Shown here in pieces: positions 46,113 through 53,737 of a stretch of 64,000 nt of DNA. Made by a program: the position numbers and the translations under genes. The DNA lies in assembly GCF_007954275.1 (NCBI RefSeq), contig NZ_VOLT01000010.1:124001-188000 (forward strand), in the 5' to 3' direction. Below the pieces are notes generated by a model. That model was not told the DNA's origin and made no database searches. It saw nothing but the letters and a program-made list of their open reading frames with translations. The stretch's first letter is position 1. The number at the start of each line of letters is the position of its first letter. Source of the DNA: Colwellia demingiae (lineage in GTDB: Bacteria > Pseudomonadota > Gammaproteobacteria > Enterobacterales > Alteromonadaceae).

Positions 46113-48371
46113 TTAATGTCGATTATCCTCCTTCAATTGCCATATTGTTAAATGGGGTTGAACTACCGTAAAGTGACGTGTATTAGTCTTAATGATTTGA
46201 GTAACCTCTTGCTCATCAACCAAGGTGAAATTATTAGATAATAAAGCGGTTAATGCTTCAAAACCGGTCAAGTTTTCACCATTAATTTTTTGTCCACCCA
46301 ACCATTTAGTTTTATCTGTGACTTCTTCAGTAAATTGATAATCTGAAATAATAACCAAGATACCTTGTGCATTAAGTCGCTGATGAACATGTGCTAAAAA
46401 TAACGCGGGGTCATAACTTTGCTCTAAAGTATTTTGTGCAATGATGACATCATAACCAGCAAATATATTTTTTAGATTACCAATATCTCCTTGACTAAAA
46501 TGAATGTTTTTTGATTGTTCTTGTAATTCGATAGGTAAGGTAAACTCATGAAAATCAGTTAGCTCTCCTTCACGAGGCATTACATATCGTATCGATTCGC
46601 CTTGTTGGAGCTTTACACCGTATTGAATATATCTAGCAGAAAAATCAACCGCATCGATCGAGGAATAATACTTAGCCAAGATAAAGCTTAAACCGCCAAC
46701 ATTACAGCCTAAATCTAGACATTTTAACATTGGTTTTACGTTATATTTATCGACTACTTTAACAATGGTGTTAGCCAGTCTATCTAAGTAATTACTCGCT
46801 AGGTGCTGTTCATTGACAGCTAAGTTCGGATCTTTTTTAGGTTGTTGTTTCGTATTTGGTAACGAAGCACTTAACGAGTTCAGCTGTTCGAAGTGATTAT
46901 GAAGTTGCCGGCATACTTGAGTATCGGTTTCATAGTGATTGTCAGCTAAATTCGGTACATTCTCATTTTTACTCACAACATACCTAAAGCCTGCATGTTG
47001 AAAAAAGTGCCGACGAAAAGCATAACGAGAATTTTGCATCGCCTCGTTACCTGTCGAGATCCAAGAGCCACCTTTAATTAGGTTGTGTTTACCATCAAAG
47101 GTGGGCGTAGAGAAATCATCATATAAAGGATGAACTGAGAAACCGTTGAAGCCATCAATGGCTGATTCTGTCCACTGCCATACATTACCGACAATGTCGT
47201 AAAAATCACCTTGGGAGAACATATTTATCGGGCAAGAAGAAGCAAAGTATTCACTGTTAATATTACCTGGTGCTTTTTGCCATGATAGTAAGTCACCTTC
47301 AACTTGCTCTCGTAAAGATAGCCATTCGCCTTCAGAAGGCAGTCTATAGAGACCTTGGTTGTCTTTATCGCTTAAACCATTATCACTTAAGGCTTTATCA
47401 TCTAAGCTATTTTTCCAATTACAGAAGGCTTTCGCTTCGAGGTAGTTTACTTCTACTGGCCAATCCAGCGGCAAAGGCATTTCATTTAATAAGTTTCGCT
47501 GCCAATATTCGCCCGATTGCTTTAACCAAAATCGTGGCATCGTTGCTTCGCTATATGCCAACCATTGTTGCCCTTCTTGGGTCCATAAAAAAGTATTTTG
47601 ATAACCACCTGACTCGACAAAGCCCAAAAACTCTTCATTAGAGACTAAATATTTTGCAGCGTGAAAATCATCTAAGGCTAATGTTGCACATCCGTATTCA
47701 TTGTCCCAACCAAAGCTATCATCTGATGTTGGCTTGCCAAACTTAATAACACTTCCCTCTACTGGCATTAATACATTATTTGGCGGGCTATCGGTTTGCA
47801 GGCAAGTAGGCCAACATTCATTCGGAGTTAATGAAGCTAATGGCAACATCCGCATAATCACTGAAGAGGTTTCAATGTGAATACGCTCATGTTCACAGCC
47901 CATTAAAATAATCCACGCTAATGAATTTTGCTTAATAGGTAATACTAGCGACATAGTGTCAATGATATGATCGACAACAGTAAAAACTTGTTGTCGGTAG
48001 ACTCTTACTTCATCAACTGCTGGCCAATCATAATGTGCACTATTAAGATCATCCCAGCTCATTTCATCTACACCAACGGCGCAGATTGCTTCTATTCGAG
48101 GGTTAATTCTCTCATCGATATATTTACCTAATATGAGCTTATTTATATAAAAGCAGGCTGTATGTCCAAAGTAAAAAATCAATGGATGTCTTAATCGCTC
48201 AGGTCTCTGATAGTAAGCCTCATCATTATTGACCAATGAGAACAAAGAATCATAACGTTGCCATGTTGCTTTAAAATAGCGTTTTAATTCAGCACGTTTT
48301 CCATTTACAGAGTCCCCCATTAACGTTGGTGACTTGGGCTCGCTTACTTCGTTGTATTTGTTAGTGTCCAT
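46113..48371 (-). CDS. ovoA: Ovothiol synthase OvoA: 5-histidylcysteine sulfoxide synthase with methyltransferase domain
   Basis: 752 residues, the full three-domain form. DinB-like helical domain (about 25-190) with iron ligands His70 (YFGHTACFY) and HERIHIE (161-167, HX3HXE). FGE-sulfatase-like domain (about 195-480) ending in GGSWISTGNEAMQNSRYAFRRHFFQHAGFRYV. C-terminal SAM methyltransferase (about 540-750) with LDLGCNVGGLSFILAK and DVIIAQNTLEQSYDP. It joins cysteine to C5 of histidine using oxygen, and the methyltransferase makes the N1-methyl product leading to ovothiol A, an antioxidant thiol. 10 bases after a GS-like ligase gene on the same strand; no ovoB-type lyase is adjacent. Confidence 0.93.
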   Translation of the reverse strand: MDTNKYNEVSEPKSPTLMGDSVNGKRAELKRYFKATWQRYDSLFSLVNNDEAYYQRPERLRHPLIFYFGHTACFYINKLILGKYIDERINPRIEAICAVGVDEMSWDDLNSAHYDWPAVDEVRVYRQQVFTVVDHIIDTMSLVLPIKQNSLAWIILMGCEHERIHIETSSVIMRMLPLASLTPNECWPTCLQTDSPPNNVLMPVEGSVIKFGKPTSDDSFGWDNEYGCATLALDDFHAAKYLVSNEEFLGFVESGGYQNTFLWTQEGQQWLAYSEATMPRFWLKQSGEYWQRNLLNEMPLPLDWPVEVNYLEAKAFCNWKNSLDDKALSDNGLSDKDNQGLYRLPSEGEWLSLREQVEGDLLSWQKAPGNINSEYFASSCPINMFSQGDFYDIVGNVWQWTESAIDGFNGFSVHPLYDDFSTPTFDGKHNLIKGGSWISTGNEAMQNSRYAFRRHFFQHAGFRYVVSKNENVPNLADNHYETDTQVCRQLHNHFEQLNSLSASLPNTKQQPKKDPNLAVNEQHLASNYLDRLANTIVKVVDKYNVKPMLKCLDLGCNVGGLSFILAKYYSSIDAVDFSARYIQYGVKLQQGESIRYVMPREGELTDFHEFTLPIELQEQSKNIHFSQGDIGNLKNIFAGYDVIIAQNTLEQSYDPALFLAHVHQRLNAQGILVIISDYQFTEEVTDKTKWLGGQKINGENLTGFEALTALLSNNFTLVDEQEVTQIIKTNTRHFTVVQPHLTIWQLKEDNRH

Positions 48372-48381
48372 GAAACGCCGC

Positions 48382-49533
48382 CTATAATGTGTAATTAAAA
48401 TTAACAGGTAATGCTATTTTATTAGTTTGATATTTAGCGAGAATTTGTTGCTTAATTGAGTCACCTAAATAAGCAGGTTGGTGATTGTCATCATTTATTA
48501 AACTCATGAACTGCTGCACCTTATTGATTCGTTCACTAAACCATGGACAGCGAGTAAATAGTTCAATAGCACCAATAGAATCTTTAGCGCCACCAGCCCC
48601 TTGTTGGTATTGGTTATATAGTGACTTGGGTAATTCGATGGTTTGTATTGAAGAAGATAAATCGGATAAGCAACTTTCTTGCAGATATACCTCGAGGGCA
48701 TCAACAACATTCATTAAAGAAAATAAGACATTAACATATGGATTATAAGCCGCACTTGAAGCTCCTAGTCTGTGTTCTATACGTGCTGTTTTTTGCCAAT
48801 TTTGCTCAGTAACTAGTATTTCATTATGTTGATCAAACAGTAACGTCTCTTCGCCCATTTGTTGATTATGCTTACCTAACTCTTTATACAGCGCAATACT
48901 ACCTTGATGTCCACCGGAAATATCACAAGGAGAACAAAGCTCTGCTGCCAAACCATAGGTTGATTTTAATTTTAAACGTTCGAAGGCTTCTTCTTCGGGC
49001 AAATATAAAAGACTACATTCCTTACTCGTTTGCAAAAAACATTGCTGTAAGTATTCGCCAAAACCATCATGTGAAATAATATTAACGCCGTGCTCATTGA
49101 TAACACTGACATTGATTTGAATGGCATTGGGTATATGAACAGCTCGAGTGTCTGTGGTAAAAATATCGCGAGAGCCTACCGCTAACTTTCCTTGATCACC
49201 TGACCAAACTACTGGTTGAATTAACGTTTCCGTAATGCCATGTTGAGCAAAGATTATGGGAAGGTGATTCATAGCTCGAACTAAGTTATCGGCTTCTTTT
49301 AGTGGAGACTGGCCATTAAATAAAGAGACATACTCCCATTGGTTTTTCCAATATTCATTAACGACTTCACCGTCGATATCCAACATAGATAAGCTATGGT
49401 TAATGGCTGTAAGGTCAATTTTGTTAATATTGTCAGGGATTTTATAGCAGCCTTCTAACTCAAAGTGAATTTGAGCTTTAAAGCCTAAGTGACTTAGGTA
49501 ATCTTGGAGCAAGACAAGTGCTTTTTTTAACAT
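48382..49533 (-). CDS. Glutamine-synthetase-like ATP-dependent ligase, co-transcribed with ovoA
   Basis: 383 residues. Although divergent, it follows the glutamine synthetase catalytic fold: FELEGCYKI (24-32, Glu25 and Glu27 where GS has its ExE metal ligands), GEVVNEYWKNQWEYVS (55-70, further Glu ligands), PLKEADNLVRAMNHLPIIFAQHGITETLIQPVV (77-109, like the helix before the metal loop), and the phosphate/substrate loop TARIEHRLGASSAAYNPYVNVLF (249-271) with Arg251, Glu253, Arg255 and the NPY of GS. It is about 80 residues shorter than GlnA, and the beta-grasp N-terminal domain seems reduced. Expected chemistry is ATP-driven amide or gamma-glutamyl bond formation. Position 10 bases ahead of ovoA suggests its substrate is in the ovothiol route; this is inference. 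Confidence 0.7.
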   Translation of the reverse strand: MLKKALVLLQDYLSHLGFKAQIHFELEGCYKIPDNINKIDLTAINHSLSMLDIDGEVVNEYWKNQWEYVSLFNGQSPLKEADNLVRAMNHLPIIFAQHGITETLIQPVVWSGDQGKLAVGSRDIFTTDTRAVHIPNAIQINVSVINEHGVNIISHDGFGEYLQQCFLQTSKECSLLYLPEEEAFERLKLKSTYGLAAELCSPCDISGGHQGSIALYKELGKHNQQMGEETLLFDQHNEILVTEQNWQKTARIEHRLGASSAAYNPYVNVLFSLMNVVDALEVYLQESCLSDLSSSIQTIELPKSLYNQYQQGAGGAKDSIGAIELFTRCPWFSERINKVQQFMSLINDDNHQPAYLGDSIKQQILAKYQTNKIALPVNFNYTL

Positions 49534-49890: not shown

Positions 49891-49923
49891 AAAAAAAGCT
49901 TACTATTTACAAGTAAGCTTTTT
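49891..49923 (-). terminator. Rho-independent terminator of the S10 peptidase gene
   Basis: AAAAAGCTTACT pairs perfectly with AGTAAGCTTTTT, 42 bases after the stop codon, flanked by A/T runs on both sides. Confidence 0.9.
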
Positions 49924-49964: not shown

Positions 49965-51509
49965 TTAGTACTTGGCTGCTTGACCTTTCGCCGGCAAGCT
50001 TCTCTTAATAAACTCACGAATGTCTTGGTTTGCATCTCGTAAGTCTTCATGACGTAAGTACATCATATGACCACTCTCATAACCTTTAAATGACAATCTA
50101 TCTTTCATTAAACCACTTGGATCTAATTGCCACATAGTATATTTAGCATCAAAATAGTTTGTCGCGCCATCAAAGTAACCCGATTGAATCATCACTTGTA
50201 AATAAGGGTTTTGTGCCATGGCAGAGCGAAGTCCTTCACCTGTTTTATTACCGGTACGATCCCACGGACGGACGTTGCCAAACATATTGTATTTAATATC
50301 AGTTTTATAATTTAATTCTTCACGTAAATAATAATTAATTGCTGGGGTAAAACTGTGTAACCATGAGCTTAATTCAGCATTATAATCTGGGCTAGAGCCG
50401 GCAACTTTTTTATCAATTCCCAAGTAGCGAGAATCTAAACGTCCAATGGTTTGCTTTCTATCACGTAATAATTCTTTCCAGAAAAATGAATTATCAACAT
50501 CTAAATTATTATTAATAACCGCTTCTACCGATAAACCGGCATATTTTGCAACTTGCTCTGCAATAACGTGCTTCTCTTGTGCGGTAATAAAGCCGCCTTT
50601 AGCTAAAGCAGGTAAATATTCACTTATAGTAAAGGTCTCAACTTCTGCAAGTAGTTCTGCTAAAGGCTTTTGTTGAAGTGATGGCGTTAGGGCTTTGTGA
50701 TACCAAGCGGCAGCAGTAAAGTAAGGTAGTCTATTTGCCGCTTTTACCGGCCCATCTCGTTTGATACCAATATCGGTTGGTGAAACCAAAATCACACCAT
50801 TAACATACATCCATTGGCGTTCTTGTAGTTCTTTCGCCAAACCTGCAACACGCGTAGTGCCATAGCTTTCACCAATTAAATATTTAGGTGAACGCCAGCG
50901 ATTGTTGCGACTTACAAAGGTATTAAGCCACTCGGCTAAATAGTTAATATCAGCATTAACGCCAAAGAACATTTTTTTCTGTTGCTCTTTACTTGGCATT
51001 TCTCCGTCTTTACCAGCCAACACACGCGAGTAACCGGTATTTACAGGGTTAACAAAAACAATATCCGCGACATCTAAAATTGAGTAGGGATTAGTCTTTA
51101 CGCCATAAGGCTGTAATGGATAACCTTCATCATCTACATTCAGCACTCTAGGGCCAGTATAAGCAACATGCATCCAGACAGAAGCAGAACCTGGCCCACC
51201 ATTAAAAGAAATCACCAATGGACGTTTAGCGCTATCTTTTACATCACTACGTTGATAGTAGGTATAAAACAAACTCGCGATTGGATTGCCTTCTTCATCC
51301 CAAACGGGTTGCGTTCCTGTAGTAGCGGTATATTTAAACTTCTGTCCATTGACCTTAGTACTGTGCTTTGTGATGTTTTTGTCATCGATAGCCAGTTTAC
51401 GTTCATGCATTTTTTGCTGTTGCTCAGGCTCTTTAGCAGCTAAAACAGGGCTGGATGATAAGCTGAACATCACCATAACAGGAACTAAAAAGTTTAAGCC
51501 TTTCTGCAT
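49965..51509 (-). CDS. Exported S10 family serine carboxypeptidase
   Basis: 514 residues with signal peptide MQKGLNFLVPVMVMFSLSSSPVLAA. Alpha/beta hydrolase of family S10: oxyanion region VISFNGGPGSASVWMH, nucleophile GESYGTTR, Asp in MIQSGYFDGATNYFD and His in FKGYESGHMMYL. Such enzymes release C-terminal residues from peptides, at low pH in eukaryotes; in marine bacteria they probably work in the periplasm in peptide scavenging. Terminator follows; an R3 element lies upstream of its start region. Confidence 0.92.
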   Translation of the reverse strand: MQKGLNFLVPVMVMFSLSSSPVLAAKEPEQQQKMHERKLAIDDKNITKHSTKVNGQKFKYTATTGTQPVWDEEGNPIASLFYTYYQRSDVKDSAKRPLVISFNGGPGSASVWMHVAYTGPRVLNVDDEGYPLQPYGVKTNPYSILDVADIVFVNPVNTGYSRVLAGKDGEMPSKEQQKKMFFGVNADINYLAEWLNTFVSRNNRWRSPKYLIGESYGTTRVAGLAKELQERQWMYVNGVILVSPTDIGIKRDGPVKAANRLPYFTAAAWYHKALTPSLQQKPLAELLAEVETFTISEYLPALAKGGFITAQEKHVIAEQVAKYAGLSVEAVINNNLDVDNSFFWKELLRDRKQTIGRLDSRYLGIDKKVAGSSPDYNAELSSWLHSFTPAINYYLREELNYKTDIKYNMFGNVRPWDRTGNKTGEGLRSAMAQNPYLQVMIQSGYFDGATNYFDAKYTMWQLDPSGLMKDRLSFKGYESGHMMYLRHEDLRDANQDIREFIKRSLPAKGQAAKY

Positions 51510-51895: not shown

Positions 51896-53290
<1,395 letters not shown>

Positions 53291-53737
53291 CTACCCCTCA
53301 ATGTTTGGTGGCCAGTTATTGGCGTCTAGCTTTGATGTCCATATAAGGAACTCAGCTAAATCATCAATTTCTTGGTCATTTAAGTGGAAGTTAGGCATTT
53401 GACGACGACCTGGAATGTTTAATGGCTGAGCATTCATCCAACCATTTAAGAAAGCTTTAAAAGCTACTTCATTACCACCGCCGCGACGGTCATATACGTT
53501 CATTAGTTCTGGAGCAAAATATGCGCCTTCACCAATAAGTGTATGACAACCAATACAGTTGTTTTTTTCCCATAAGTGTTTACCGCGTTCAACCGCTTCG
53601 GTAATATTTTCTCGATTATCCCGTTTGGGCATCTCTTTTACTGTGTGAAAAGTCAAAGCTAAGAATATTAAGAAGAAGAATATACTTCCTCCGTAATAAA
53701 TATTCCTTGCCATGCCTTTAGTAAAGCTCTCTGACAT
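53291..53737 (-). CDS. norC: Nitric oxide reductase cytochrome c subunit
   Basis: 148 residues. N-terminal membrane anchor (about 12-31), single haem site NCIGCHTLIGEGAYFAPEL (Cys61, Cys64, His65) and distal Met in GRRQMPNFHLNDQEI. Passes electrons to NorB. First gene of norCB, with a perfect FNR-type box centred about 87 bases upstream of the start codon. Confidence 0.95.
   Translation of the reverse strand: MSESFTKGMARNIYYGGSIFFFLIFLALTFHTVKEMPKRDNRENITEAVERGKHLWEKNNCIGCHTLIGEGAYFAPELMNVYDRRGGGNEVAFKAFLNGWMNAQPLNIPGRRQMPNFHLNDQEIDDLAEFLIWTSKLDANNWPPNIEG

Follow-up and report, generated by a model that had tools for sequence, protein, structure and literature searches.

The window, by which we mean the whole analysed stretch of 64,000 nucleotides from Colwellia demingiae contig NZ_VOLT01000010.1, carries an open reading frame (ORF 48382-49533, named gsl here) directly ahead of ovoA. 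The best reading of gsl is an amide ligase dedicated to the ovothiol pathway and dependent on ATP and metal, which probably gamma-glutamylates the amine of ovothiol A or of 5-thiohistidine; we give this reading a probability of about 45%. By computation, the gene is characterised by its predicted fold, its conserved residues and its link to one OvoA clade, while glutamate as the donor, the acceptor and the product are what we infer. The two genes are arranged as follows.

48382..49533, minus strand: gsl, protein of 383 amino acids with ATG start, ligase-like with glutamine synthetase (GS) fold, catalytic domain only (from ORF call and predicted fold)
48372..48381, minus strand: gap of 10 bases between the gsl stop and the ovoA start
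46113..48371, minus strand: ovoA, 752 amino acids, 5-histidylcysteine sulfoxide synthase and 5-thiohistidine N-methyltransferase (NCBIfam and PDB match)

An earlier note, made from the letters of this DNA, had described a 383-residue ORF lying 10 bases ahead of ovoA on the same strand, and the coordinates agree. The open frame of gsl has 386 amino acids, i.e. 3 codons beyond the 383-residue ORF. Both genes are probably co-transcribed. The naming of the downstream gene as ovoA was also correct: OvoA is complete and both NCBIfam domain models are above cut-off (TIGR04344, 633.6 bits against 400; TIGR04345, 242.2 bits against 170), and its best PDB match is OvoA chain 8khq.

gsl is tightly tied to ovoA, and this linkage is supported by computation. 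After removal of duplicates ovoA was found directly after gsl in 30 of 30 distinct loci, which came from 31 keys, one of them being a truncated fragment from a genome counted before. With the most upstream in-frame ATG of ovoA taken as its start, the gap was between -4 and 83 bases. The earlier note had proposed to look whether homologues sit beside ovoA in other genomes, and no gsl copy away from ovoA was found in the examined genomes and loci. Among 41 relatives, 13 had gsl and 14 had a strong OvoA match, and the two genes were adjacent in all 13; the fourteenth strong-OvoA relative (G029) is without gsl. Six further relatives had weak partial OvoA matches only, with E values of 8.3e-17 (G037) or worse, the other five 8.6e-17 or worse. 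The gsl matches of G008 and G017 include one stop, and their frames to the first stop have 377 and 370 residues. For 25 genomes of the same genus, both genes were present in 12, neither in 13 (three of which carry weak partial OvoA matches) and a single gene in none. All 15 of 15 further contig loci, belonging to Colwellia, Pseudocolwellia, Thalassotalea, Thalassomonas, Psychromonas and a Colwelliaceae bin, had ovoA as the next gene. Searching 369 genomes of the class gave 2 gsl matches. In a sample of 398 genomes of the phylum, 24 were above the OvoA cut-off (294 had some match, most far below it), and gsl was present in five, all in the family of the window and all among the OvoA bearers.

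A quick maximum-likelihood tree of 49 OvoA sequences, calculated with no bootstrap, grouped all 30 gsl-linked sequences as a single clade, with a Shimodaira-Hasegawa-like approximate likelihood ratio test (SH-aLRT) value of 100, to which none of the 19 unlinked ones belonged. Of the unlinked OvoAs, five come from the window's own family, and of the linked ones, two come from other families. The trait follows the OvoA subtype, not the host family. Distances of gsl and OvoA were correlated with r of 0.81, a value reached in 0 of 2000 permutations. H161, H165, E167 and other residues of OvoA were invariant in the 30 linked and 18 unlinked sequences, with the divergent L159 left out. Clade-specific OvoA positions were few, for example M175 for Q and S403 for T, and the stretches near them were invariant in both sets; such positions are not decisive. 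In one locus (L067, genome G009) the ovoA frame is interrupted near residue 105 with an open gsl frame, which may be either an assembly error or decay.

Family models did not recognise gsl. Against Pfam and NCBIfam, it had zero families at E<=1, and no GS, gamma-glutamylcysteine ligase (GCS) or EgtA family was matched by 41 gsl members in Pfam at E<=10 or by 116 members in NCBIfam at E<=1. Within its own genome, PF00120 (Gln-synt_C) matches three other GS genes, gsl not among them, and PF04262 matches a single GshA gene on another contig with 523 bits and not gsl itself. The Pfam family of the GS N-terminus had no match to gsl, and PF04107 had no match in its own genome, one of the 41 genomes having one. 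A GlnA or GshA paralogue was therefore rejected by PF00120, PF04262 and the Pfam and NCBIfam scans. This agrees with the statement of the earlier note that the ligase is neither GlnA nor a standard GshA, and the hidden Markov model search which it had suggested, against the Gln-synt_C, GCS and EgtA families, gave no match to gsl or its tested relatives. Its description of gsl as a GS-like ligase is supported by the motif and the predicted fold, but no Pfam or NCBIfam family sees the GS character. If it is a ligase, gsl would be a ligase family unrecognised by the Pfam and NCBIfam models used.

The gsl frame is no chance product: 542 protein clusters match it at E<=0.001, and its pairing with ovoA recurs in the 30 distinct loci. 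The profile search gave 552 clusters, and 489 were obtained when the most divergent member was the query. There was no other named family among the matches listed (the best 120 of 552 and the best 120 of 489 clusters). Sequence matches to the PDB were judged as chance: an inositol trisphosphate receptor had an E value of 0.016, and the profile gave a match at 0.36.

It could also be supposed that gsl supplies a precursor, making gamma-glutamylcysteine or gamma-glutamyl-histidine for this OvoA clade as EgtA does for EgtB. The chemistry of the GS/GCS superfamily is compatible with it, the gene stands ahead of ovoA and goes with a single OvoA clade, and a few OvoA positions are specific to this clade, M175 and S403 among them. 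But no EgtA or GCS family was matched by the 41 and 116 members, the genome's own GshA should already make gamma-glutamylcysteine, and OvoA of Erwinia strongly prefers cysteine over gamma-glutamylcysteine, according to the available part of PMC9103826. Since that OvoA prefers cysteine, GshA is present and the linked OvoAs keep the invariant residues, gamma-glutamylcysteine supply is less likely, and we consider precursor supply on the whole unlikely. The analogy to EgtA in the earlier note is weak in view of the missing family match, the cysteine-preferring OvoA of Erwinia and the separate GshA. Its other proposal, a gamma-glutamyl conjugate of ovothiol or of a precursor, is still the leading candidate.

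Structure prediction gave gsl the fold of the GS-superfamily catalytic domain. The first model, from 41 sequences, had a predicted local distance difference test (pLDDT) score of 82 and the second, from 116 sequences, 92.6. Both give the GS fold, and a chance fold match was rejected on this agreement. GS-type chains are among the structural matches listed for the gsl model, and GCS-type chains are among those listed for neither model. The N-terminal beta-grasp domain with Asp50 is not in gsl, as residue 1 of the model pairs with GS residue 111 in the best match. A structure prediction had also been suggested in the earlier note; the models support a GS-superfamily ligase fold, and candidate ligase residues, which that note had asked for, are conserved.

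For conservation we used 220 sequences, consisting of the window's protein and 219 of the about 550 reported clusters, and for comparison with GS six MAFFT alignments with 32 GS proteins (three modes at two sample sizes). At least 98% conservation was found for 83 residues, candidate catalytic ones included. E25, E27, E60, E67, Q139, N141, S143, R186, E198, R251, E253 and R255 never varied, and G28 was also present in 220 of 220. The loop RIEHRLG...NPY and the ExE motif named in the earlier note are present at residues 251-266 and 23-28 (HFELEG). The candidate active-site residues are the following.

49450..49467, minus strand: HFELEG, residues 23-28; E25 and E27 equated with GS E129 and E131
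49333..49356, minus strand: E60..QWE67, equated with GS E212 and E220
49105..49119, minus strand: Q139-x-N141-x-S143, equated with GS H269-x-H271-x-S273 (five of six alignments)
48976..48978, minus strand: R186, equated with glutamate-binding GS R321 (five of six alignments)
48769..48783, minus strand: RIEHR, residues 251-255; E253 and R255 equated with GS E357 and R359 (six of six alignments)

The ExE motif was in exact register with GS E129/E131 in one of the six alignments and shifted by two residues in five. The pairing of E60 with E212 was made by inspection, because none of the six alignments gives it. The available part of PMC6529630 describes E129, E131, E212, E220, H269 and E357 as metal ligands of GS, E131, N264, G265, R321 and R359 as the glutamate site, H271 and R344 as contacts of the ADP phosphates and D50 as the ammonium site. 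Compared with these, gsl seems to retain most of the metal-site and glutamate-clamp pattern, with one change (H269 to Q). The phosphate arginines of GS have no clear counterparts in the alignments, and the ammonium site is missing along with its domain.

At such a two-metal site, the counterparts of GS R321 and R359 would hold glutamate, and ATP would phosphorylate its side-chain carboxylate to give gamma-glutamyl phosphate. An amine larger than ammonia may then attack it; the missing beta-grasp domain with its ammonium-binding Asp50 would leave room for a large acceptor. Since gsl is seen only with OvoA, the acceptor most likely comes from this neighbour, as the alpha-amine of ovothiol A or 5-thiohistidine, and the product would be a gamma-glutamyl (glutathione-like) 5-thiohistidine. 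A GS-fold amide ligase beside ovoA, w​ith no named function, could instead act at the other end of the molecule, by activating the carboxylate of ovothiol or of the sulfoxide precursor for condensation with an amine or an amino acid. We think this improbable: the candidates for both glutamate-binding arginines of GS are invariant, so that a dicarboxylate donor such as glutamate is favoured.

Several observations weigh against a gamma-glutamylating ligase with GS chemistry. In sequence, the profile support for GS is weak: there is no Pfam or NCBIfam family match, and hhalign of the gsl family with 32 GS proteins from the own and related genomes gave a probability of only 23-25%. The template modelling (TM) scores of Foldseek on the query were only about 0.56. 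One gsl member, P0131, is named as an ATP-grasp protein in UniRef; this identity is unsupported, since P0131 is without a precomputed Pfam domain and the model of the window protein is GS-like. In the active site, E67 fell on GS E220 in two of six alignments and E60 on E212 in none, so these pairs were set mostly by inspection; the GS metal ligand H269 is a glutamine (Q139) in five of six; and phosphate-binding R344 fell on K217 in three of six and R339 on no basic residue. In distribution, 19 of the 24 OvoA bearers of the phylum sample have no gsl, and the linked loci are not independent because they form one clade of Colwelliaceae and a few near relatives. The replaced H269 and the phosphate arginines that are not clearly kept would also be matched with a regulator or accessory fold which supports OvoA and has no ligase activity. 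This is very unlikely in our view, as the high conservation of candidate catalytic residues, counted among the 83, suggests catalysis.

A third gene, for a pyridoxal phosphate (PLP) enzyme of aminotransferase fold, follows ovoA in 14 of the 30 gsl loci, the deepest branch (L066) included. The encoded proteins are 37-69% identical to the L015 copy.

L005-L008, L010-L012, L014, L015, L066, L160-L163: loci with the PLP gene
L015:9718-10893: PLP gene, L015 copy

None of the 19 loci with ovoA but no gsl has it, among them L156, where the sequence stops 145 bases past ovoA. Four of the 19 have weak matches to it of 21-26%, and these are PatB-like genes. A PatB-like gene stands beside ovoA in eight of the 19 gsl-free loci, seven of them being 24-33% identical to that of G029, whose protein scores 358.6 bits with the PatB C-S lyase model, above its cut-off of 340. 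In G029, a genome of the same order as the window's, this PatB-family C-S lyase gene (L065:6502-7635) lies directly upstream of the gsl-free ovoA. The PLP enzyme belongs to PF00155; Alliinase_C scores 27.2 and 27.4 bits in two copies, above its cut-off of 22 but far lower than PF00155. In NCBIfam it was below cut-off in the best 25 of 95 models listed, the top one being GntC. No orthologue of the PLP gene was found in the window's own genome, where the best identity was 27%, and all matches of the PatB model there were below cut-off. We read gsl-ovoA-PLP as the ancestral unit, from which the PLP gene was later lost repeatedly, once in the lineage of the window. Our guess is that the PLP enzyme is the cognate C-S lyase.

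This gene allows another order of steps: the ligase would first conjugate the OvoA sulfoxide, and C-S cleavage of the conjugate by the PLP enzyme encoded downstream would follow. The restriction of the PLP gene to gsl loci, the PatB-like gene beside ovoA in eight of the gsl-free ones and the Alliinase_C match would fit to it. But the lineage of the window has gsl-ovoA without the PLP gene, and the protein fits PF00155 far better than Alliinase_C and is below cut-off in the NCBIfam models listed, which leaves this order with only a slight probability.

The preferred gamma-glutamylating ligase can be compared with known systems. With type I GS (GlnA; GSI-alpha/beta), gsl shares the fold of the catalytic domain, the RIExR...NPY and ExE motifs and candidate metal- and glutamate-binding residues, whereas it has no beta-grasp domain and Asp50, Q in place of H269, no PF00120 match and ovoA adjacent in all 30 loci. 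EgtA and GCS2 have related superfamily chemistry and single-domain architecture, and plant-type GCS2 has a Q-x-N motif similar to that of gsl; unlike these gamma-glutamylcysteine ligases, gsl has no PF04107 or NCBIfam match. GSI-gamma proteins lack the N-terminus and have the catalytic domain only, and most characterised ones are gamma-glutamylpolyamine synthetases (PMC10799026, available part). gsl is similar to them in its single catalytic domain and probable non-ammonia acceptor but different in its ovothiol, not polyamine, context and in the absence of a GS family match, GSI-gamma being compared here by description only.

The 5-thiohistidine N-acetyltransferase 5THNAT was, like gsl, found through ovoA linkage, and the same alpha-amine is predicted to be modified; in contrast to gsl, which has a predicted GS fold and occurs in marine Gammaproteobacteria, it belongs to the GNAT acetyltransferases, takes acetyl-CoA as donor and occurs mostly in Bacteroidota (PMC12631010, available part). 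That 2025 paper surveyed ovoA neighbourhoods and reported the acetyltransferase, and its available part mentions no ligase. Beside 5THNAT, it names OvoA as the only known enzyme recognising any 5-thiohistidine derivative. The PDB also has a stand-alone 5-thiohistidine N-methyltransferase, OvoM (9bxl), and so the list of such enzymes is short but longer than stated there. As judged by listings of the open-licence literature, no description joining a GS-like gene to ovoA was found.

The surroundings of the pair are as follows.

49893..49923, minus strand: weak terminator-like hairpin separating gsl from the peptidase gene upstream of it

Three terminator-like sites were found against 2.4 expected by chance, and promoter prediction was uninformative (5 found, 15.2 expected). 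Upstream of gsl, window positions 49965-51509 encode a serine carboxypeptidase-family (S10) protein, whose cluster is present in 3 of 16 loci; this family is uncommon among bacteria. In 10 of the 16 compared loci the gene directly 5' of gsl belongs to one cluster, and its L015 copy (L015:4477-6369) is a TPR-GGDEF diguanylate cyclase. Positions 51896-53737 of the window encode a COX1-family membrane protein and a small cytochrome c, a pair which we take to resemble norCB nitric oxide reductase. In Pseudocolwellia agarivorans a glutathione S-transferase-like gene (L016:11351-12082; PF17172, PF17171) comes after gsl-ovoA.

More tentatively, and with some doubt, we suggest that gsl may make a previously unknown low-molecular-weight thiol, gamma-glutamyl-ovothiol or gamma-glutamyl-5-thiohistidine, as the ovothiol counterpart of glutathione. 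It might then represent a new GS-superfamily clade able to function with no beta-grasp domain, and gsl-ovoA(-PLP) a pathway variant in Colwelliaceae and near relatives. Finding more such enzymes is a prerequisite for understanding the roles of 5-thiohistidines, as the available part of PMC12631010 puts it. If the ligase reading is true, gsl would be a further enzyme recognising 5-thiohistidine derivatives, tied to one OvoA clade in all examined loci, and a ligase family would be added beyond the Pfam and NCBIfam models used.

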